From: a virus
IMG/VR virus record: IMGVR_UViG_3300014050_001143
Coordinates: 1 to 21,610 of that record
Reading direction: 5' to 3' (one strand)
DNA length: 21,610 nucleotides
Position 1 is the first letter of the stretch. Each line of letters opens with the position of its first letter. A program made the position numbers and the translations under genes. Positions 10,747 through 21,214 of this stretch are shown piece after piece. Below the pieces are notes generated by a model. The model was not told the DNA's origin, ran no database searches, and was given only the letters and a program-made list of their open reading frames with translations.

Positions 10747-11268
10747 ATGGGGAAAATGCAAGATTTATTGAAAGATGAAACGGAAGCACAAACTGTTGAA
10801 GGTTATTCCAATCAGCAAGTTATTGATCTTCTAAAAGAGTCTCTGAATGTTCATTGGCAGCAATGCACTTCATTGACCGCACAGGCTATTCATTTAGAAA
10901 GATGGGGCTATACCAAGCTAGCTAGTATCATAAAGGCTGATGCGGATCAAGAACACGAACATGCTGCTATTAATATCGCTAGATTAGAATTCTTTGACGT
11001 TGATTATCAGCCAATCGTGATTACTCCACCGGTATGGACTAGACACAACATGATGGCTATGATACAATACAATTTAGACTCTGTTAAGCAGGCTGCTAGC
11101 GTTGAAAAAGCTACTATTGTTGCTGCTAGAGCCGTTGGAGATGAAATGACAGCTAATGTAATGATTCCATTACTTCAAGGTAGTGAAGACGGAATCAAGC
11201 TATATGAAGGATATCTAAAACTTATTGAACAGATGGGACTAGATAACTTCCTGTCAGTACAAGTCTGA
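10747..11268 (+). CDS. bacterioferritin-like four-helix protein with an altered di-iron site
   Basis: This 173-residue protein has the ferritin-like four-helix layout and the bacterioferritin C-terminal helix (LIEQMGLDNFLSVQV aligns with LIQKMGLQNYLQAQI of E. coli Bfr). Aligning by eye on Trp53-Gly54, Glu69 and His72 match the Bfr ligands Glu51 and His54. The positions of Glu18, Glu94, Glu127 and His130 appear as His36, Asn, Ser and Gly, and the haem ligand Met52 position is His70. So the fold is likely kept while the classical ferroxidase centre is mostly lost. Function is uncertain: a structural or DNA-protective shell, or a binder with a changed site. It is the last gene before a terminator. 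Confidence 0.78.
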   Translation: MGKMQDLLKDETEAQTVEGYSNQQVIDLLKESLNVHWQQCTSLTAQAIHLERWGYTKLASIIKADADQEHEHAAINIARLEFFDVDYQPIVITPPVWTRHNMMAMIQYNLDSVKQAASVEKATIVAARAVGDEMTANVMIPLLQGSEDGIKLYEGYLKLIEQMGLDNFLSVQV

Positions 11269-11325: not shown

Positions 11326-11376
11326 GACAGTTTAGCGTTATAATACTTTGATTGAGTCTCCAGTTGCGAGGAAAAA
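11316..11376 (+). promoter_or_regulatory. promoter and leader for the polymerase operon
   Basis: Two overlapping candidates lie between the terminator and ATG 11377. One pairs TATAAT (11339-11344) with GTGTTT (11316-11321) at a 17-base spacing, a form that recurs upstream of ssb. The other is a perfect TTGACA (11324-11329) with a 17-base spacer to TTTGAT (11347-11352), a weak -10. TTGACA and TATAAT cannot work together, as they are only 9 bases apart. A GCGAGG ribosome binding site lies 5 bases before the ATG. This is the longest non-coding gap in the window (108 bp with the terminator), so a promoter is expected here; which elements are used is undecided. Confidence 0.6.
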
Positions 11377-12984
11377 ATGCCTTGGTTCCCATTGAAAAAT
11401 TACACACATTATAGTCTACTAAAGGGCTATTCTAAGCCCGATGAATTAGCCGCAAAGTGCAAGCAAAATGGATATAAAGCTTGCGGTATTTGTGACTACA
11501 AAACCATTTCTGGTTCTGTTGCGTTCTTTCAAGCTTGTAAAAAGGCCGGTATAAAACCAATCATAGGCTGCTCTTTTGACAACTTTATACTATTTGCTAA
11601 AAATAAGGCTGGATGGCACGACTTGATAGAACTCGTTTCATCCCTTGATGATAACGATAATGTTCCAGATTCTGTGTTGTCCGACGTTCTCAAGAGAAAC
11701 AACCTACTTAAGTTTTCGGATGCTCCCGCAAAATCTATGCCTATTAGTTATTATACGAATCAAGAGGATGCTAAACTACATAGAATACTTCTATGCTCAG
11801 ACATGAAGACAACGCTACCAAAGGTTCTTAAAAGCATCAAAAGTGACAAAGAATTATCTCAGGATCATGCAGATAAAGTAAAGTATTTTTTACATGACAC
11901 ATTTTACGTTTTGAATAGCGATGAATCCAAAAATTTACCATCAGATGAATTAGATAAGATTTATGAACAGTGCGAGGATTATGATATTCTTAATAAGCCA
12001 ATGCTTCCCAAGTTTGAGTGTCCCAATGGTCAAACAGAAGAAGATTACCTAAAAGAACTTTGTAGGGATGGCTGGAAAAATCTATTGATGGCAAAGGGTA
12101 AGGTATCACAAGATGAAGATAAGCAGAAATATCTTGATAGATTCAAAGAAGAGTTTGATGTTATTAAGGGTGCTAATCTATTCGGATATTTCCTCATTGT
12201 GCGAGATATCATTAACTATGTGAACAATCAAGGGTGGCTTTCTGGTCCCGGTCGAGGATCAGCGGCTGGATGTTTAATCTCTTATCTTGTTGGTATCACA
12301 AAGATCGATCCACTAGAATTTGATCTTCTTTTTGCAAGATTCTACAATGCTGGAAGAAATAGTGCCGACCATATATCATTGCCAGATATTGATATGGACG
12401 TTCCCGGTAAACATAGAGATGCAATTATCGGATATATCAAAGACAAGTACGGACATGATCGCGTTAGTCAAATGTTAACATTTGGAAGACTCCAAGGGAA
12501 AAGTGCCATTAAGGAAGTTTTACGAGTTAATGAAGCCTGCTCTTTTGCAGAAATGAATGCCATAAGTAACTGTATTCCAGACGAGGCTAAGATTTCTGAT
12601 CAATTAGCGGAAATGGATGATGAAGACCGATCTATTATTAGATGGGCATTAATTAACAATGCTGATGATCTAAGAGACTTTTGCAGAATAAATGACGATG
12701 GAGAACTAGAAGGTGAATACGCTGATTATTTTAATCAAGCTATTCGGATCGAAGGAACATTTAAAACACAAGGTAAACATGCTGCTGGCGTTGTTATTTC
12801 AGCAGAGCCGTTGTGCAAAGTGTGTCCTATGGTAAAGCAGAAGGGGTCACAGGAAAAGATTGCAGGATTGGAAATGGCAGACCTAGAAGCATTAGGACAC
12901 GTTAAGTTTGATGTGTTAGGTATCAATTTGCTTGATAAGATTATGAAGATACAGGAAATAACAGGAGCAACAGATGGCAAATAG
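11377..12984 (+). CDS. dnaE: DNA polymerase III alpha (DnaE-type), N-terminal half of a split polymerase
   Basis: This 535-residue protein is the first half of a C-family replicative polymerase. Residues 1-70 align with the PHP domain start (YSLLKGYSKPDELAAKCKQN, AGIKPIIG), but the His-x-x-x-His metal site of bacterial DnaE is replaced (PLKNYTHYS), so PHP catalysis is unlikely. The palm has GPGRGSAAG and PDIDMD (336-341; Asp339 and Asp341 match E. coli Asp401/Asp403), then VSQMLTFG, KHAAGVVIS and VKFDVLG with Asp512, matching the third catalytic Asp555. The protein stops 23 residues later, where E. coli DnaE continues to the fingers. The rest is encoded from 13644. Alone it would carry the active site but not the fingers, thumb-side contacts or OB domain. 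Confidence 0.92.
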   Translation: MPWFPLKNYTHYSLLKGYSKPDELAAKCKQNGYKACGICDYKTISGSVAFFQACKKAGIKPIIGCSFDNFILFAKNKAGWHDLIELVSSLDDNDNVPDSVLSDVLKRNNLLKFSDAPAKSMPISYYTNQEDAKLHRILLCSDMKTTLPKVLKSIKSDKELSQDHADKVKYFLHDTFYVLNSDESKNLPSDELDKIYEQCEDYDILNKPMLPKFECPNGQTEEDYLKELCRDGWKNLLMAKGKVSQDEDKQKYLDRFKEEFDVIKGANLFGYFLIVRDIINYVNNQGWLSGPGRGSAAGCLISYLVGITKIDPLEFDLLFARFYNAGRNSADHISLPDIDMDVPGKHRDAIIGYIKDKYGHDRVSQMLTFGRLQGKSAIKEVLRVNEACSFAEMNAISNCIPDEAKISDQLAEMDDEDRSIIRWALINNADDLRDFCRINDDGELEGEYADYFNQAIRIEGTFKTQGKHAAGVVISAEPLCKVCPMVKQKGSQEKIAGLEMADLEALGHVKFDVLGINLLDKIMKIQEITGATDGK

Positions 12985-13654
12985 AGATTTTATTATATTC
13001 GACTTTGAAACTGGATCAAGAAATCCCCATAAGACACAACCAACCCAAATTGCTGCTTTAGCGTTGGATGGAAGAAATTTAGCGGTAAAGGGACAATTCA
13101 ATAGCGAGATTCAGCCCATATTTGATGACGAAAAGGCTATATCTCTTGGTCTTGATCCAATTGAAGATGAGGCATTAAAGATTACAAATAAAACTAGAGA
13201 TCAGTTATCATCAGCACCGTCATTAAAGTCTGTGTGGTCGAAGTTTACAAAATTTGTGTCACAATATAATTGGAAAGGTGACACGTTTTTTAATCCTATT
13301 CCTGTTGGTTTCAATATTATTGGATTCGATCTTATTATTGTAGATAGACTGTGCAGAGAGTATGGACCATATGATGATGAGAGAAGGCAGCAAAAACTAT
13401 TCAGTAAGGTTTATAAGATAGATATTATGGATAATATCTTTACATGGACAGAGAGCGATCCATCAGTAAAGTCAATCAGTATGGATTCTCTTAGAGAGCG
13501 AATGGGATTAAGTGCAAACGGAGCGCACGACGCTCTACAAGATGTTAAGGATGAAGCGAATATATTCATCAAATTGTTGAAAACACATAGGGCGGTGTAT
13601 CAAAATGTTAACTTTGACAAGGCATTTGCAAGCGGGGAATTGTATGTTAAATGA
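12974..13654 (+). CDS. DEDDh 3'-5' exonuclease (DnaQ-like) lying between the two polymerase halves
   Basis: This 226-residue protein has all DEDDh residues: Asp10 and Glu12 in FDFETG, Asp119 in GFNIIGFD, and His185/Asp190 in HDALQD. It should remove mismatched 3' ends, acting as epsilon-type proofreader for the neighbouring split polymerase. Its ATG follows AGGAG at 7 bases and overlaps the end of the first half by 11 bp (ATGGCAAATAG). Its own end overlaps the second half by 11 bp (ATGTTAAATGA). Length fits a stand-alone DnaQ domain, with no C-terminal linker beyond about 35 residues. No homing-endonuclease domain is visible. The arrangement implies co-production of three subunits in order. 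Confidence 0.9.
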   Translation: MANRDFIIFDFETGSRNPHKTQPTQIAALALDGRNLAVKGQFNSEIQPIFDDEKAISLGLDPIEDEALKITNKTRDQLSSAPSLKSVWSKFTKFVSQYNWKGDTFFNPIPVGFNIIGFDLIIVDRLCREYGPYDDERRQQKLFSKVYKIDIMDNIFTWTESDPSVKSISMDSLRERMGLSANGAHDALQDVKDEANIFIKLLKTHRAVYQNVNFDKAFASGELYVK

Positions 13655-15215
13655 TTTGGATTATAACGATAAGGCTACTTGGCAATTATTCGCAGAGGGT
13701 AAAACCAAGGGTATTTTCCAGCTAGAAAGTAACCTTGGTAAATCTTGGGCTAAGAAATTAGCACCAACCAATATCGAAGAATTGTCAGCACTTATTGCTA
13801 TTATCCGACCGGGAACACTGAAAGCCTACGTTGATGGTAAAAGCATGACACAGCATTATGTTGATAGAAAGCATGGACGAGAAGAAGTTACATATCTTCA
13901 TCCAGCCCTAGAAGATATTCTAAAGACAACGTATGGGGTTCTTGTGTATCAAGAGCAGTCCATGCGTATAGCTGAAAAGATTGCCGGTTTTAATCTACAA
14001 GAAGCAGATGTTTTACGTAAAGCTATTGGCAAGAAAAAAGCAGACCTTATGAATGAGGTCAAAAAGTCTTTTATTGCGGGTGCTGAACGTGTTGGCATCG
14101 TAACAAAAGAAGAGGCAGAACAAATTTTCGGCTGGATTGAGAAATCCTCTAGATATGCATTTAATAAGTCTCATAGCGTTTCGTATGCTGTCTGTTCATA
14201 TTGGAGTGCATACTTTAAGGCTCACCACACTTTGGAGTTCTTTTTGTCATACCTTTATTATGCTAATGAAAAGCAAGACCCTCATCAAGAAATATATGAA
14301 TTAATATCAGAAGCCAAGCTGTTTGATATTCAAGTTAAAACTCCAAGTTTGGCTAACTTTGATACGAAATTCAATATTCAGAAGAACAAGATATTCTTTG
14401 GTATTAAAGATATCAAATCTCTTACCGGTAAGACGGGTGATAAACTCATAGAGTCTATAGAATTAGCAGAAAAAGAGCTTGATAAGAACATTACAAAATT
14501 CACATGGCTAGAAATTCTACTTTTCTTTAGCCCTTTGATAAGTTCAACCGCATTTAAGGCATTGGCATCAATAGGATTCTTTAGGGGTTTTGCGGATAAA
14601 ATCACTAGAAATAAAGCCCTATATGACTATGATATTTTTAAGACTTTAACCAAAGCAGAACAAACATGGATTCAAACTCACTACAAAGAGAAAAATTGGG
14701 GTTCGTTTGTTGACTGTTTAAAGGATTTGGCACCAACCAAAAAAGAGGGTGGTGGTACAAGTAAAGCGGACAGAAAGCAAGCTATAGAAAATGAAATACA
14801 GCTACTTATAAATCCACCTTATGATTTAGAGGATGATCCGTCTTGGGTAATCGATCAAGAAGTTAAATTCTTGGGTTGTCCTGTAAGCATGACCAAAGTT
14901 GAAACATCTGATACTTCGGCAGCAAATACCACTTGCAAAGAAATTATCAACGGCAAGAAAGGTAAAGATTTATGTATAGTTGCTAATGTTCAGCGTGTTT
15001 CAGAATATAAAATAACTAAGGGCGAGTCAAAAGGTCAACTGATGGCCTTCTTAACTATAGAGGATGATACTTGTATGCTTGATAGTGTGATAGTTTTTCC
15101 AAAAGTTAAGGAGAAGTACAAGTACGTTCTATATGAAGGCAATAATTTGACATTTTGCGGTGCGGTTGGCGAAAATGATAATTCATTCATTGTTAATCAA
15201 ATACACGAAGTGTAG
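13644..15215 (+). CDS. dnaE: DNA polymerase III alpha (DnaE-type), C-terminal half of a split polymerase
   Basis: This 523-residue protein picks up where the first half stops. It begins near the point that matches IPLDDKKSF of E. coli DnaE and runs through KGIFQLES, RPGTLKAYVDG, YVDRKHG, LVYQEQSMRIAEKIAGF, VLRKAIGKKK and AFNKSHSVSYAV, all fingers and palm-extension motifs of C-family polymerases. The last about 85 residues (VANVQRVSEYKITKGESKGQ onward) form an OB-type domain. ATG 13644 is preferred because of the GCGGGGAA site before it and the 11-bp overlap with the exonuclease; the frame opens at 13605 inside that gene. Together the halves total 1058 residues, close to normal DnaE size, so little is missing. 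It must associate with the first half to be active. Confidence 0.9.
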   Translation: MLNDLDYNDKATWQLFAEGKTKGIFQLESNLGKSWAKKLAPTNIEELSALIAIIRPGTLKAYVDGKSMTQHYVDRKHGREEVTYLHPALEDILKTTYGVLVYQEQSMRIAEKIAGFNLQEADVLRKAIGKKKADLMNEVKKSFIAGAERVGIVTKEEAEQIFGWIEKSSRYAFNKSHSVSYAVCSYWSAYFKAHHTLEFFLSYLYYANEKQDPHQEIYELISEAKLFDIQVKTPSLANFDTKFNIQKNKIFFGIKDIKSLTGKTGDKLIESIELAEKELDKNITKFTWLEILLFFSPLISSTAFKALASIGFFRGFADKITRNKALYDYDIFKTLTKAEQTWIQTHYKEKNWGSFVDCLKDLAPTKKEGGGTSKADRKQAIENEIQLLINPPYDLEDDPSWVIDQEVKFLGCPVSMTKVETSDTSAANTTCKEIINGKKGKDLCIVANVQRVSEYKITKGESKGQLMAFLTIEDDTCMLDSVIVFPKVKEKYKYVLYEGNNLTFCGAVGENDNSFIVNQIHEV

Positions 15216-15269: not shown

Positions 15270-15581
15270 ATGAATATGTGTTCTTTTACAGGGTATTTGG
15301 TAGAAAATCCAAGAATATCCGTTATTGATGATATTGTTAAGGCGGAATTTATGATGGTAGTCTATACTTATCGTAGAACCAAGAGTGGCGAAAAGAATAG
15401 AATACCAACATATCTTTACTGTGAAGCTTGGCATACTGGTGCGGAAACTCTAGAAAAGTATGCAACCAAAGGAACAAAATTAAATGTTCTTGCTTCCGCA
15501 AAGAATGTTTCTAAGGATAATCGCTCTGTGATTTTTAGAATCAATGAGTTTGATTTTTGTCACCAAGACTTTGAAGACTAA
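15270..15581 (+). CDS. ssb: single-stranded DNA-binding protein (SSB-like OB fold)
   Basis: This 103-residue protein has the SSB OB-fold pattern: an N-terminal MCSFTGYLVENPRI strand pair, FMMVVYTYRRTKSGEKNR, a TYLYCEAWHTGAETLEKYATK segment (matching the typical W...AE....yl.KG) and a final beta strand. It would coat single-stranded DNA at the fork. It is shorter than bacterial SSB (about 150-180) and lacks the long flexible tail with the acidic DDDIPF-like tip, ending only in a short HQDFED. Partner recruitment through the classical tip is therefore doubtful. ATG 15270 has AAGGAG 9 bases upstream. It sits between the polymerase genes and the glycan cluster and may have its own promoter. Confidence 0.8.
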   Translation: MNMCSFTGYLVENPRISVIDDIVKAEFMMVVYTYRRTKSGEKNRIPTYLYCEAWHTGAETLEKYATKGTKLNVLASAKNVSKDNRSVIFRINEFDFCHQDFED

Positions 15582-15587
15582 TCAATA

Positions 15588-17249
15588 ATGAGAAAGAAAC
15601 GAATACTATTTTGTAGCGAAGCTACATTTTTAAATACCGGTTATGCTACTTATACTAGAGAGATACTAAAGTATCTATATAGTACGGGCAAATATGAGCT
15701 AGCAGAATTAGCATCATATGGCGAAAGAAACGATCCAAGAGCATCTAATATACCTTGGAAGTTCTATGGAGTAATACCACCGCAAGACGCATCGGAAGAA
15801 GAAAAGGCTCAGTATGCCAATAATCCTTTGGCTCAATTCGGAGAATGGATATTTGAACCGGTTTGTTTAGATTTTCAGCCAGATATAGTATGTGATATTA
15901 GAGATTTCTGGATGTTGGACTTTGCAGAAAGATCACCATACAGAAAATTCTTTAAGTGGTGTATTATGCCAACCGTTGATGCCAAGCCGCAGGCTAGACA
16001 ATGGATTGCGACTTATGAATCAGCAGATGCTTGTCTAACATATTCAGAGTGGGCTGGAGAAGTTCTAAAGGAACAATCCGGTGGAAAAATAAACTATCTT
16101 GGTATATCTCCACCCTCTGCTCATGAAGCATATCAACCCATAGAAGATAAGGCAGGATTACGAACATCACTTGGAATTGATCCAAATGCCAAAATTATAG
16201 GAACAGTTATGCGTAATCAAAGACGCAAACTATATCCAGATTTATTTAAAGCGTTTCGTATTTTACTTGATAGTGTAGAAGATAACTCAAACTACTATCT
16301 ATATTGTCACACTAGTTATCCCGATTTAGGTTGGGATATACCAGAATTACTACAAGAATACAAGCTATCATCTAAAGTATTATTTACATATATGTGCGGT
16401 CAAACCAACAGACCGTTTGTATCCTTATTTAAAGGAGCAATCGCTCAGTCGCCATACACTGGACAATATGGAGCTTCACTTTCCAACGTTAAAAACGGTG
16501 TAGAGTATGAGGATTTAGCAAAGATTATCAACTTATTTGATATCTATGTGCAATATGCCAACTGCGAAGGTTTTGGTCTTCCTCAAGTAGAAGCAGCGGC
16601 GTGTGGCACACCAGTAATGGCTACTGACTATTCTGCTATGGAAAGTGTTGTTAGAAATCTTGGCGGTATACCTATCAAGCCAAAAGCTCTCTACAAAGAG
16701 TTGGAAACCGGATGTTTAAGAGCAGTTCCAGATAATGAACTAGCAGCACAAAAGCTTATAGAGTTTTTTAACAAGCCCATTAGTGTTAGAAAAAAGATGG
16801 GCTTTGAAACACGGCAAGCATTTCTAAAACATTATCAATGGGATCAAAGCGGAAAGGCTTGGGAAAATTATTTTGATAGCGTAGATATCGTACCAGAAGA
16901 TTTGACTTGGAAATCTCCTCCTCGTATTTTTTATCCAGAACCAAAGCCCGAACAGTTACCACCAAATATTAGCCACCAAGACTTGGCTAGATGGTTAGTA
17001 ACAAAAGTTCTTTGTGAGCCAGATAAAGTAAATAGTTTTATGGAAGCAAGACTTGTGCGTGATTTGATGTATAAAGCCACAACATCTACAACTGGCGGAA
17101 TGTACTTTAACGAAAGTTCAGCAGCTTTTGATGGAAAGCAAGGTAGAACGCCTTTTGATTTTAATATGGCATATCAACATATGGCAGCACTATGTAGCAG
17201 AAGAAATTTTTGGGAACAAAAAAGAGCAGAGGCATTTAGACTCATATGA
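15588..17249 (+). CDS. GT-B glycosyltransferase with C-terminal extension
   Basis: This 553-residue protein is a GT4-like GT-B enzyme. The N-terminal Rossmann domain begins ILFCSEATFLNTGYATYTRE. The donor-binding domain contains CEGFGLPQVEAAACGTPVMA, where Glu327 and Glu335 give the EX7E motif that contacts the sugar nucleotide. The GT core ends near residue 440. About 110 further residues follow, beginning after a Pro-rich linker (PEPKPEQLPPN), with no recognisable family; they may bind the acceptor or a partner. No signal peptide or membrane helix is visible, so it should act in the cytoplasm. It begins 6 bases after ssb and overlaps the next glycosyltransferase by 4 bp. Donor and acceptor are unknown. 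Confidence 0.85.
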   Translation: MRKKRILFCSEATFLNTGYATYTREILKYLYSTGKYELAELASYGERNDPRASNIPWKFYGVIPPQDASEEEKAQYANNPLAQFGEWIFEPVCLDFQPDIVCDIRDFWMLDFAERSPYRKFFKWCIMPTVDAKPQARQWIATYESADACLTYSEWAGEVLKEQSGGKINYLGISPPSAHEAYQPIEDKAGLRTSLGIDPNAKIIGTVMRNQRRKLYPDLFKAFRILLDSVEDNSNYYLYCHTSYPDLGWDIPELLQEYKLSSKVLFTYMCGQTNRPFVSLFKGAIAQSPYTGQYGASLSNVKNGVEYEDLAKIINLFDIYVQYANCEGFGLPQVEAAACGTPVMATDYSAMESVVRNLGGIPIKPKALYKELETGCLRAVPDNELAAQKLIEFFNKPISVRKKMGFETRQAFLKHYQWDQSGKAWENYFDSVDIVPEDLTWKSPPRIFYPEPKPEQLPPNISHQDLARWLVTKVLCEPDKVNSFMEARLVRDLMYKATTSTTGGMYFNESSAAFDGKQGRTPFDFNMAYQHMAALCSRRNFWEQKRAEAFRLI

Positions 17250-18361
17250 AAACATTATTTATAGGACACTACAAAGAGGGTAGTGGATGGTCACACGCTG
17301 CGATAAATTCACTGCTTGCTGCAAATTCTGTTGGAATTGATATTGTAGCTAGAAATATAAAGCTAACAAATTATCAACCCAAAATAGACGAGAGAATCAT
17401 AGCATTAGAAAATAAATCAGTGCATGATATAGATTTTTGTATTCAAAATGTTTTACCGCATCATATAGTTGGAACACAAAAATTTAAGAAAAATATTGCC
17501 TATTTTGTTGGAGAATCAAATACGCTAAAGTATAATCATTGGCTTACTAATCTTCAACTTGTTGACGAAGTTTGGGTTCCTAATGAATCCCTTAGAGATT
17601 CACTATTACGCGATGGTCTAAATAAAGTAAAAGTTGTTCCATATGCATTTGATTTAAACAAATACTCGACAACTAAAAATAGTGTAAACTTTGGTCCTCA
17701 CAATCATAAATTTAAATTCTATTACATAGGTGATCTTAATGATCGCAAAAATATAGAATCCATTATTAGATGCTTTCATAGTGAATTTCATCATTTTGAA
17801 CCTGTGAGCTTAGTATTAAAAGTCAAAAAGTTTGGCATCAATCCAAAAGATTTGTTCCAACACGTTACAAATATTTGCTCTAGTATCAAAAAAGAGTTAA
17901 GAATATATGGGGATATAAACCAATACCATAAAGAATTGATTATCTGCGATGATTTAACTGATGATCAAATACTAGCTATTCATAATTCTTGTGATTGCTT
18001 TGTGGCTCCTTCTCATGGAGAGGGATGGTCTATTCCAGCTTTTGATGCTATGTGCTTTGGTAAAACGCCCATTTGTAGCAAAGAAGGTGGACCTCAAGAA
18101 TTTATAGATGATAATAATAAGAGTACGGGATGGTTAGTAAATGGAGTATATTCTATTTGCAATCATTCCGATCCAGCTTTTCCTAACTTGTTTACCGGAA
18201 GAGAAGAATGGTTTACTCCTAGTGAGCAAGAAATTAAGAAAGCTATGAGATTTTACTATGAGAATAAAGATTCTATTGACAAACAAGCCGGAATAAAGCA
18301 AGCCGCAGAATTCTCTTATGAAAAAGTGGGACAAAAGATAAAGGATGCTCTCAATGATTAA
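17246..18361 (+). CDS. GT-B glycosyltransferase (GT4-like)
   Basis: This 371-residue protein carries a GT-B donor domain with SHGEGWSIPAFDAMCFGKTP; Glu259 and Asp267 occupy the EX7E positions, with Asp at the second. The N-terminal domain starts TLFIGHYKEGSGWSHAA, the glycine-rich acceptor-side loop seen in family 4 enzymes. The size is standard for the family. It overlaps the previous gene by 4 bp (ATGA) and the next by 8 bp, so the three glycosyltransferases are probably translated together and may add successive sugars. The sugar and the target are unknown. No transmembrane segment is seen. Confidence 0.85.
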   Translation: MKTLFIGHYKEGSGWSHAAINSLLAANSVGIDIVARNIKLTNYQPKIDERIIALENKSVHDIDFCIQNVLPHHIVGTQKFKKNIAYFVGESNTLKYNHWLTNLQLVDEVWVPNESLRDSLLRDGLNKVKVVPYAFDLNKYSTTKNSVNFGPHNHKFKFYYIGDLNDRKNIESIIRCFHSEFHHFEPVSLVLKVKKFGINPKDLFQHVTNICSSIKKELRIYGDINQYHKELIICDDLTDDQILAIHNSCDCFVAPSHGEGWSIPAFDAMCFGKTPICSKEGGPQEFIDDNNKSTGWLVNGVYSICNHSDPAFPNLFTGREEWFTPSEQEIKKAMRFYYENKDSIDKQAGIKQAAEFSYEKVGQKIKDALND

Positions 18362-19352
18362 TAATTCTGTTGATAGACTAATTAGCATTGCTAACAAAAA
18401 GAAACCAGAAAAGTACAATATTCTTACTTTTCCAACACACGAAAGATACGAAACTCAACTATGTAAAACAGGACATAATTTCTATTCTTTTCATTTGCCC
18501 AATCTAAAGAAATGGAATTATTCGCAGATTCCCACTCCAGCAAATTATCATATTCTGCCAGAGTCAATAGTTTCTGAATTTATAGGATATGATTTTATAC
18601 TAGTGCAAAGCAAGTACTGGCAGTATCAAGTAGCTCAACAAATAAATCAACAGCTTAATATACCAATTATATGCTTAGAACACACACTACCAACTCCGCA
18701 AACACTAAGCAAAGAACATATAGAAGCTATGACTAATATGGTGGGTCATATCAATGTATTTATTTCTAAGTTTTCTATGGATGCATGGAATATAAGATAT
18801 AACTCCGTAGTCATTCATCACGGAATAGACTCAGAAACATTTAAGCCTAATGATGAGCCAAAGCAAGATTACGTTCTAACTGTGGCAAATGATTTTGTAA
18901 ATAGAGATTATTGCTTAAATTATCATGGATGGCAGAGAGTAACGGGTCAATTAAAAACTAAGCTTGTGGGAGAAACCAAAGGATTATCTAAGTCAGCATC
19001 TTCCACGGAAGAACTTGTGCGAGAATACAATGCTTGCGGCGTTTATTTTAATAGCTCAATACTTAGTCCTATTCCAACATCTTTACTAGAAGCCATGAGT
19101 TGTGGTTGTGCGGTTGTGTCAACAGCAACGTGTATGATACCAGAAATTATTCAAAATGGAGTAAATGGTTTTATTTCAAATGATGAAAAAGAATTAGAGA
19201 TGTATTTAAAGCAAATACTCAAAGACAAAGACCTACAAAAAACTTTGGGAGAAAATGCTAGAAAAACAATTGTGGAACGTTTTTCAGAAGATGCATTTAT
19301 CAAAAAATGGAACGAAATTTTCGATATAACTTATGAGGTTTCAATAAGATGA
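18354..19352 (+). CDS. GT-B glycosyltransferase, divergent active-site motif
   Basis: This 332-residue protein has a GT-B C-terminal domain with SLLEAMSCGCAVVSTATCMI, followed by PEIIQNGVNGF. The first Glu of the EX7E motif appears to be Ser238, while the second, Glu246, is kept; this may weaken or change catalysis. The ending ENARKTIVERFS...W is typical of GT4 family members. ATG 18354 is preferred to ATG 18345 because AAAGGA stands 8 bases before it; it overlaps the previous gene by 8 bp. It ends by ATGA overlap with the small methyltransferase-like gene. The N-terminal half is less conserved than in the two preceding glycosyltransferases. Confidence 0.82.
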   Translation: MINNSVDRLISIANKKKPEKYNILTFPTHERYETQLCKTGHNFYSFHLPNLKKWNYSQIPTPANYHILPESIVSEFIGYDFILVQSKYWQYQVAQQINQQLNIPIICLEHTLPTPQTLSKEHIEAMTNMVGHINVFISKFSMDAWNIRYNSVVIHHGIDSETFKPNDEPKQDYVLTVANDFVNRDYCLNYHGWQRVTGQLKTKLVGETKGLSKSASSTEELVREYNACGVYFNSSILSPIPTSLLEAMSCGCAVVSTATCMIPEIIQNGVNGFISNDEKELEMYLKQILKDKDLQKTLGENARKTIVERFSEDAFIKKWNEIFDITYEVSIR

Positions 19353-19783
19353 AAGTTTACATTACTGAAAATATTGATAAGGTTGTGGAGGGGTACATAA
19401 TGGTGCCTATTATATATGGCAAAATAGACTTGGGGCAGGTTCCTAATAATGCTGCTCAATCTATTGTTGCTATAGATGCTCTTGATAGTATTCCTGTCCA
19501 ATTCTTAGACACTTTTTTAGAAGACGTTAAGAGTAAAATGAGACTCAATAGTGAACTGATACTCGGTGGAACAGAATTGTCTATTGTCTCTAGAGATGTT
19601 TTATTGGGCAATTTGAATACACAAAAATATAACGAGTTGGTTTTTTCTAAACGCGGATTATACAATGTTAGTGATATAATCTCTTTATTGCAGAATAAGA
19701 ACTTAGTTATCAATAAATCATCTATCAAGGGATATAATTATGAAATCTCAGTCACAAGATCGCAAACTTCAAACCAGTTGTAA
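19349..19783 (+). CDS. small methyltransferase-like protein lacking the SAM loop
   Basis: This 144-residue protein resembles the C-terminal half of small Rossmann methyltransferases. It has a SIVAIDALDSIP strand-helix, a KSKMRLNSELILGG strand like the L.pGG.l segment, and a final YEISVTR-like strand. The N-terminal SAM-binding motif I (GxGxG) is not visible, so methyl transfer is doubtful. It may be a reduced or scaffolding derivative kept within a glycan cluster. It starts with ATGA overlap on the preceding glycosyltransferase and overlaps the next gene by 44 bp in another frame. An alternative view is a hypothetical protein with only chance resemblance. Confidence 0.6.
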   Translation: MKVYITENIDKVVEGYIMVPIIYGKIDLGQVPNNAAQSIVAIDALDSIPVQFLDTFLEDVKSKMRLNSELILGGTELSIVSRDVLLGNLNTQKYNELVFSKRGLYNVSDIISLLQNKNLVINKSSIKGYNYEISVTRSQTSNQL

Positions 19784-20471
19784 AAATTGTACATTCGCTG
19801 TCTATAATGAACTAACTCAAACCGGATGTTCAGCTGATAGAATAGACAAATTTGATAAGTCTGACATCATAGAAGCATATGATAATGAAAAAGAATTCTA
19901 TGTTATTAATAAGTTCTGTAATCTATATCGACCGCTATCTTGGAACGGGGGTGTATCAAATTTAGAAAAAGCAACAGCAGAGTCTGCTTTAGACTTTGAC
20001 GTTATGGTTGATTGTAACAATATATCCGAACCCTTTAAAAACTATCTAATTGACACCATCCCCAGTATAGAGTATTATAAAGATAAGGTTAACATCAATC
20101 TTTTTCATGACTATACTTCATCATCAGATGTAAAGTCTATGGTCTTGGATGTATATTCTAAGTATAAAAGCATTAAAATTTCAATTTGCTTGTTGTCCAA
20201 TAGATTTTTACATGAATTTGCACTTAAGTCTAAAAGAAATTGTCATCTAGTTTTATCAAATAAATTCGACTTTACAAAATTATCCAAATTAAATGATCTA
20301 GTCAACCAAGACTTAAAAAGATTTATAGTGGCTAATTGTAATGGGGTGTTAGTAATTTCTAATATGGCCTACAAAATGAACTATGCTAATAGCCAAATTG
20401 ATAATTATAAAAGTAACATAAGTGATATTGTTGAAACCTCAAAGAATATAGGGATGTATATCGATATTTGA
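19740..20471 (+). CDS. four-cysteine protein with possible degenerate GT-A domain
   Basis: This 243-residue protein starts with a cysteine module: Cys14, Cys17, Cys30 and Cys60, in SCKNCTFAVYNELTQTGC and KFCNLYRP. The four cysteines suit one zinc ion or an iron-sulfur cluster. From about residue 85 an alpha/beta region begins FDVMVDCNNISEPFKNYL and reads like a worn family 2 glycosyltransferase start, but without a clear DxD. I do not recognise a named family. It overlaps the previous gene by 44 bp and ends beside the nucleotidyltransferase-like gene. A role in the same glycan pathway is inferred only from position. Confidence 0.65.
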   Translation: MKSQSQDRKLQTSCKNCTFAVYNELTQTGCSADRIDKFDKSDIIEAYDNEKEFYVINKFCNLYRPLSWNGGVSNLEKATAESALDFDVMVDCNNISEPFKNYLIDTIPSIEYYKDKVNINLFHDYTSSSDVKSMVLDVYSKYKSIKISICLLSNRFLHEFALKSKRNCHLVLSNKFDFTKLSKLNDLVNQDLKRFIVANCNGVLVISNMAYKMNYANSQIDNYKSNISDIVETSKNIGMYIDI

Positions 20472-20473
20472 TT

Positions 20474-21214
20474 ATGAAAACGAAATGCATAATATCACCA
20501 AAAGCGGGACTTTTGCCTAAAACAACTTCGGAGTTGGTAACAGTTATTTTGCTATGCGATTCTCCGGGTTATAGGATGAAGTCATATGGTCCGCTACCAT
20601 TAATAAATATAGCGAAAAAGAAACTCATAGATTTACAAATTCAAGCCATACAACAGACTTTTGTTAATAATGAAATCATTCTGTGTGTTGGCTTTGATGC
20701 AGAAAAAATATGTAAGTACGTTCGAACCTTTCATAACAAAACCAATATAAGAATAGTAGAGAATCAACTATTTAATAGCTGTAACTCCTGCGAAAGTGCT
20801 AGAATAGCCCTAAATAATACTTTGAATGATAAGATTGTTATATGCGACGGTAATTTACTATTAAATAGCAAGAGCCTATCTCTAATTCAAAGCCACGAAA
20901 CATGCGTATTAACTGAAACAAATCCATCGGAAAATCTAGAAATTGGAATAAATATTAACGAAAAGCATGACGCAGAATATTTTTCTTTTGGAGCAAAGGC
21001 TATCTGGTCAGAGATACTTTATCTACATAACTTTGAAACGGTCGAATTGTTTAGAAAAATTATAGTATCTCAAGACAATAAAAGTAAGTTTTTATTTGAA
21101 GCACTAAATGAACTATTAAAGACAAAACATAAAATTAAATGCATTCCAAATAAACATCAACTTCAAAAGATAAGCAACATCAAAACCTATCATGCCATAA
21201 AGGAAAAAATATGA
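20474..21214 (+). CDS. divergent nucleotidyltransferase-like (GT-A fold) protein
   Basis: This 246-residue protein resembles sugar-nucleotide or MobA/LicC-type nucleotidyltransferases. It has a VTVILLCDSPGYRM start, a PLPLINIAKKKLIDLQIQAI region, EIILCVGFDAEKI, and VICDGNLLL where the metal-binding Asp of the family lies. The signature GxGxRM...PK is altered: SPGYRM replaces the glycine loop and the conserved Lys after Pro is Leu. Activity is therefore uncertain. If active, it would make an NDP-sugar or CDP-alcohol donor for the neighbouring glycosyltransferases. ATG 20474 is used; a TTG at 20468 is possible. No clear ribosome binding site is seen, suggesting coupling to the gene before. Confidence 0.65.
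   Translation: MKTKCIISPKAGLLPKTTSELVTVILLCDSPGYRMKSYGPLPLINIAKKKLIDLQIQAIQQTFVNNEIILCVGFDAEKICKYVRTFHNKTNIRIVENQLFNSCNSCESARIALNNTLNDKIVICDGNLLLNSKSLSLIQSHETCVLTETNPSENLEIGININEKHDAEYFSFGAKAIWSEILYLHNFETVELFRKIIVSQDNKSKFLFEALNELLKTKHKIKCIPNKHQLQKISNIKTYHAIKEKI

Follow-up and report, generated by a model that had tools for sequence, protein, structure and literature searches.

An environmental viral contig encodes a DnaE-type DNA polymerase in two separate genes, with an exonuclease gene between them (IMG/VR record IMGVR_UViG_3300014050_001143; its positions 1 to 21,610, a stretch of 21,610 nucleotides (nt), are called the window). Bacteria use DnaE as their replicative polymerase, and the enzyme is regarded as a single chain. 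The three genes, designated N, X and C in their order, occupy positions 11377-15215. Their open reading frames (ORFs) lie in three different frames of the window, and 11-nt overlaps join the end of N to the start of X and the end of X to the start of C (Table 1). N matches the PHP profile (PF02811, 6e-18) and positions 1-260 of 260 of DNA_pol3_alpha (PF07733, 2.6e-67); X matches RNase_T (1.3e-11) and phrog_192, 'DNA polymerase exonuclease subunit' (5.8e-22); and C matches DNA_pol3_finger (PF17657, 4.3e-50). The ORF of C is open from 13605 and its conserved start is the ATG at 13644; both this start codon and the overlap are kept in relatives.

Table 1. Features of the polymerase block, in window positions (aa, amino acids)
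Feature	Position	Strand	Description
Shine-Dalgarno-like motif before N	11362..11376	+	GCGAGGAAAAA-ATG
N, split DnaE-type polymerase chain	11377..12984	+	535 aa; PHP and palm; all three palm Asp
Palm Asp codons of N	Asp337 12385-12387; Asp339 12391-12393; Asp512 12910-12912	+	
Shine-Dalgarno-like AGGAG before X, within the end of N	12958..12973	+	ACAGGAGCAACAG-ATG
X, free-standing DEDDh 3'-5' exonuclease	12974..13654	+	226 aa
Catalytic codons of X	Asp10 13001-13003; Glu12 13007-13009; Asp119 13328-13330; His185 13526-13528; Asp190 13541-13543	+	
G-rich Shine-Dalgarno-like motif before C, within the end of X	13632..13643	+	GCGGGGAATTGT-ATG
C, split polymerase chain	13644..15215	+	523 aa; fingers, (HhH)2 region, OB fold
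SSB-like OB-fold protein, directly 3' of C, same replication block	15270..15581	+	PF00436 6.5e-06

In profile alignments to solved structures, Asp512 of N corresponds to E. coli Asp555, and C begins near residues 585-589 of the same protein; the last residue of N lies 23 residues past Asp512. AlphaFold2 models were built from the clade's own alignments, with a mean predicted local distance difference test (pLDDT) score of 78 for N and 83 for C. The N model spans residues 4-578 of E. coli alpha (Z 17-20; 17-22 against DnaE structures overall), and the C model aligns to residues 585-1073 (Z 16.7; 13-18 overall). Together the two models cover contiguous ranges of the DnaE alpha fold, and the break falls in the palm/fingers linker, between E. 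coli DnaE 578 and 585, with about six residues missing. C has no equivalent of the tau-binding C-terminal domain of the E. coli protein. A preliminary description, made from the sequence alone, had reported a polymerase gene divided around an exonuclease gene, a first half ending 23 residues after the third palm Asp, almost no loss of linker, three retained palm Asp and a complete DEDDh site in X. All of this is borne out by the domain matches and alignments: Asp337, Asp339 and Asp512 are conserved across the aligned rows (each present in 198-200 of 200, the remainder being gaps), and Asp10, Glu12, Asp119, His185 and Asp190 of X are invariant in 204 rows.

Several hundred loci emerged when IMG/VR was scanned with the individual proteins and with alignments. 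They were checked with hidden Markov models (HMMs) for N, X and C; only distinct loci with all three were counted (n = 204). The order was N-X-C in every one, with no fusion of N to C or of X to either half. The layout is kept across divergence down to about 40% identity, and short in-register overlaps of 8-20 nt are conserved among relatives. This recurrence is far beyond chance. An uninterrupted gene in related genomes had been named beforehand as a sign of artefact, and none of the 204 clade loci carries a fused one.

Spacing within the layout is variable. N-X spacing runs from overlap to 6,142 nt and X-C spacing from overlap to 3,811 nt; both joints are tight in only 50 of the 204 loci, about three quarters having extra sequence at one or both, and three joints hold 2.6-6 kb of other genes. 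A few N-X joints contain metabolic genes over as much as about 6 kb. X-C inserts are mostly EndoVII-like HNH ORFs (33), while those at N-X include HNH ORFs, FkbM methyltransferases, a uracil-DNA-glycosylase-like ORF and two small-ORF families. In the window X alone lies between the halves, with no endonuclease gene, and endonuclease ORFs occupy the same joints in relatives.

The same HMMs were applied as a control to 25 loci that had been retrieved with phage polymerases from outside the clade. Nineteen are uninterrupted at the joint over the whole chain, two (L463, L464) are cut elsewhere and intact here, and four (L476-L479) have N alone. The sampled DnaE of bacteria (12/12) and of cultured phages (8/8) are also uninterrupted. 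A tree of 65 rows groups every N-X-C row into a single clade, on one side of a branch with a Shimodaira-Hasegawa-like approximate likelihood ratio test (SH-aLRT) value of 100, and L476 is sister to the entire N-X-C clade, again with SH-aLRT 100; these trees come from quick searches without bootstrap, and they resolve the deeper branching among phage DnaE groups weakly. Outside the clade and this sister, the position of the break is uninterrupted in the bacterial DnaE sampled and in nearly all of the phage DnaE sampled.

In the sister lineage the halves lie far apart. On the contig of L476 (G029), C is 11.8 kb downstream of N in the same direction, with about 15 genes between, and on that of L479 (G032) it is about 19 kb downstream, also in the same direction, and carries an in-frame HNH-type intein. 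Many of the intervening genes on G029 resemble sugar or nucleotide-sugar enzymes. The break is at the same place as in the N-X-C clade; no exonuclease lies between the halves, and three of the four contigs carry a DEDDh gene at another position. Since the same break occurs here without an exonuclease, the X wedge is not required for it, unless X was lost from the gap in the far-split lineage. The most likely history is a single ancient break that produced a C-family polymerase in two chains; this break probably predates the N-X-C layout, with the same proviso. The earlier view of the exonuclease as the wedge thus holds for its position, between the halves in 204 loci, and is not supported for its role as the splitter: the wedge is conserved in one daughter lineage and need not have caused the break.

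A competing account of the origin is that an exonuclease gene, alone or with a homing endonuclease, cut an intact dnaE at the linker. X does sit exactly in the linker, the joints are now frequent sites for endonuclease ORFs, and a phage reductase gene split by a homing endonuclease, cited in PMC10448857, provides a precedent. The break shared with the exonuclease-free sister speaks against such an insertion, except if X was lost there. Moreover, in two loci (L469:225-4375, L471:4255-7454) an uninterrupted phage DnaE is immediately preceded by a DEDDh exonuclease gene. This is a possible pre-split layout, and it also permits a duplication (X-NC X-NC) followed by loss of X, C and N parts to leave N-X-C. 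We regard insertion as a tentative account of how the break arose, somewhat doubtful but deserving attention.

It is very improbable that the working enzyme is one chain, its halves rejoined through a self-splicing intron, a cryptic split intein or ribosome bypassing. The gene family does show protein trans-splicing: in L057 (6001-7966) and L058 (4076-6840), a split intein interrupts N a second time, at GPGRG|S. However, no Rfam intron family was found at the gathering threshold in the window and eight relatives, and no Hint or intein match in the window's N or C, where the end of N and the start of C are native linker sequence. The gap in the window holds a conserved, selected and complete X, with the three ORFs in different frames; in other members it holds unrelated genes over as much as about 6, 12 or 19 kb. 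Because N-C spacing is variable and gene-filled, splicing, frameshifting or bypassing across the gap is very unlikely. Two associating proteins are the simplest account.

Split genes are often decay products, and the PHP His11 position varies within the clade, so the halves might be remnants of a polymerase replaced by a host enzyme or a second phage enzyme. Comparison of the window with L002, the relative closest to it (a 132,557 bp contig with 93-97% protein identity), gives ratios of nonsynonymous to synonymous substitution rates (Ka/Ks) of 0.045 for N, 0.011 for X and 0.015 for C. Each of 16 related contigs of 108-174 kb has one recognisable polymerase, with exactly one PF07733 and one PF17657 match and no DNA_pol_A or DNA_pol_B; DNA_pol_B was likewise absent from the 17 records examined. 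A second intact polymerase beside decaying halves, which the preliminary description had proposed looking for, is therefore not seen in the large contigs, and Ka/Ks values of 0.01-0.05 argue against decay. Given this strong purifying selection, the invariant catalytic residues in about 200 loci and the lack of any other polymerase family, together with a layout maintained down to such low identity, decay is scarcely credible. An assembly or sequencing error, conceivable in a single metagenome contig, is refuted by the recurrence of this layout, with conserved overlaps, at 204 distinct loci drawn from many independent metagenomes, and its probability is negligible. The halves are neither artefact nor decay. 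The beta clamp model PF02767 had no match in the 16 contigs (G001-G011, G014-G018), though a DnaE-type polymerase is present.

Taken together, the only recognisable polymerase of this large group of uncultivated phages is encoded as two proteins with a proofreader gene between them, which suggests that a replicative enzyme can function in the form of two chains that come together once made. We propose that the replicative polymerase of these phages is a C-family (DnaE-type) enzyme built as two separate chains. N and C would be translated independently from overlapping cistrons and then associate non-covalently, with the fingers of C closing over the active site of N, and X, from the same transcript, would serve as the 3'-5' proofreading exonuclease of this polymerase. 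The palm/fingers linker break would have arisen once, before the last common ancestor of the phage clade and its sister lineage, and the broken gene would never have been repaired in any sampled locus; the freed joints may then have come to accept endonuclease genes and other cargo. We infer the assembly of N with C, their activity and the binding of X to the polymerase, and we consider the reading as a whole (a non-covalent two-chain C-family polymerase with X as its proofreader and a single old break) highly probable.

Several points weigh against it. The window contig is only 25 kb, so the claim of an only polymerase rests on the relatives; the tie between X and the polymerase comes from synteny in the N-X-C lineage only; and the clade has no cultivated member, the best identities in cultured phage records being about 31% (N, C) and 28% (X). 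The preliminary description's three-chain polymerase-exonuclease from one operon stands as regards two separately translated chains and a cognate-looking exonuclease, presumably co-transcribed in the window layout and kept over a very long time, while its three-chain assembly is a prediction. A stronger version, in which an obligate heterodimer is a clade-wide functional design, with a palm chain and a fingers/template-binding chain made in unequal amounts, exchangeable and separately replaceable, and the proofreader between, seems to us unlikely.

Bacterial Pol III alpha (DnaE; PDB 2hnh, 5fku, 3e0d) with epsilon has the same module order (PHP, palm, fingers, (HhH)2, OB), the same three catalytic Asp and, as here, a separate DEDDh exonuclease. 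Bacterial alpha is one chain, whereas the phage enzyme comprises two chains and lacks the C-terminal tau-binding domain. The NrdA of an Aeromonas phage is split by the homing endonuclease MobE; this NrdA/MobE split was reportedly described by Friedrich et al. in 2007, as were split gene 43 polymerases of T4-like phages. In these cases, too, an essential phage enzyme is kept as two chains after a gene break. There, however, the break is recent and local with an endonuclease between; here it is clade-wide with the proofreader between. Fractured genes with split inteins are said to have been reported by Dassa et al. in 2009. They share with the present system a phage replication gene in two ORFs, a gene between and endonuclease genes at the joints of relatives; they differ in that the window's N/C joint lacks intein halves, the split inteins of L057 and L058 being at another site. 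In L058 a DUF7487/TnsA-like ORF lies between the intein halves, which is a fractured-gene arrangement.

Literature searches on split DnaE in phages turned up only a minimal version in jumbo phages and a split family B polymerase (PolB). In group 2.2 jumbo phages, a minimal split Pol III alpha consists of two stand-alone proteins thought to reconstitute the enzyme (Iyer et al. 2021, PMC7824862). Its other Pol III domains are absent, the cut is within the nucleotidyltransferase region, the genes are distant, and it accompanies a family B polymerase (PMC7824862). Both systems thus have a C-family core as two stand-alone phage proteins. In the present one, by contrast, PHP (by profile) and OB (by structure) are kept, the cut separates palm from fingers, no PolB occurs in 16 contigs, and a proofreader gene lies between. 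In phage MIJ3, PolB is split by a split intein (PMC6892783). PolC and Bacteroidetes DnaE1 have a built-in exonuclease, within or ahead of PHP (Timinskas et al., PMC3919608); the exonuclease is closely coupled to a C-family polymerase there as here, but is fused in the chain instead of encoded between two polymerase genes. A full-domain, apparently sole, clade-wide two-chain DnaE with the proofreader between was not found in the literature searched, which mostly excluded subscription papers and preprints. The nearest mechanisms are the split-intein PolB and the homing-endonuclease-split reductase.

A clade-wide two-chain DnaE that is apparently the phages' only polymerase would mean that a replicative polymerase can do without the palm/fingers linker and be put together from parts. 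The halves are natural, not engineered, and may be used for probing the role of the linker and the docking of the fingers. Gene breaking appears to have become permanent here, not a recent accident. Environmental phages may also hold more C-family polymerases than are counted by gene callers and surveys that look for one long polymerase gene.

Further breaks and mobile elements were observed in this region. The polymerase gene has another break, immediately ahead of the SLPDIDMD catalytic motif, in L060 (5950-7963), L127 (2353-5204), L440 (3108-6101), L445, L463 and L464, with a LAGLIDADG-like ORF within it in L127 and L440. The second fragments of L060, L127 and L440 share a similar head of about 85 aa, and their first fragments end in a degenerate motif copy (ISF-EFS). 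PHROG matches suggest a further break ahead of this motif in reference phages. The C half carries in-frame HNH-type inteins in L260 (6688-9036) and L483 (G032), both near a conserved RPG segment, and an upstream RecB-like nuclease gene (L440:1123-3111) has an in-frame intein-like insertion after IDWKG. We read this as a polymerase region that tolerates breaks and in which mobile endonucleases settle.

Small ORFs lie between N and X in deep branches (e.g. L440:6101-6283, L425), of about 60 aa in 42 loci and about 75 aa in 23; neither family has a PHROG match, and an extra subunit is possible. A family of 163-aa ORFs occurs at either joint (11 at N-X, 4 at X-C); it is present in L002 and not in the window, which marks a recent gain or loss. 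On the contig of L203 (G019, 49800-59800), seven genes lie between N and X, among them ORFs that read from sequence as aldehyde dehydrogenase-, dimethylarginine hydrolase-, aminotransferase- and UDP-sugar dehydrogenase-like. A CxC-motif extension (e.g. FSSCDCQVEKGKFD) at the start of C is found in L196, L203, L277, L278, L480 and L483, that is, in deep branches and the sister lineage. It is lost in the window's lineage, and may be a metal site or docking element.

The terminase model PF17289 had no match, so the phages are not placed in a named family. Two N-X-C loci fall in bins of metagenome-assembled genomes, one of Flavobacteriales (L277) and one of Lokiarchaeota (L278), and both look like phage contigs inside bacterial or archaeal bins. 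In the window, a ferritin-like protein gene (10747-11268) lies directly 5' of the polymerase block, and 3' of the SSB-like gene three successive glycosyltransferase genes and one DUF6564 gene occupy 15588-21214.

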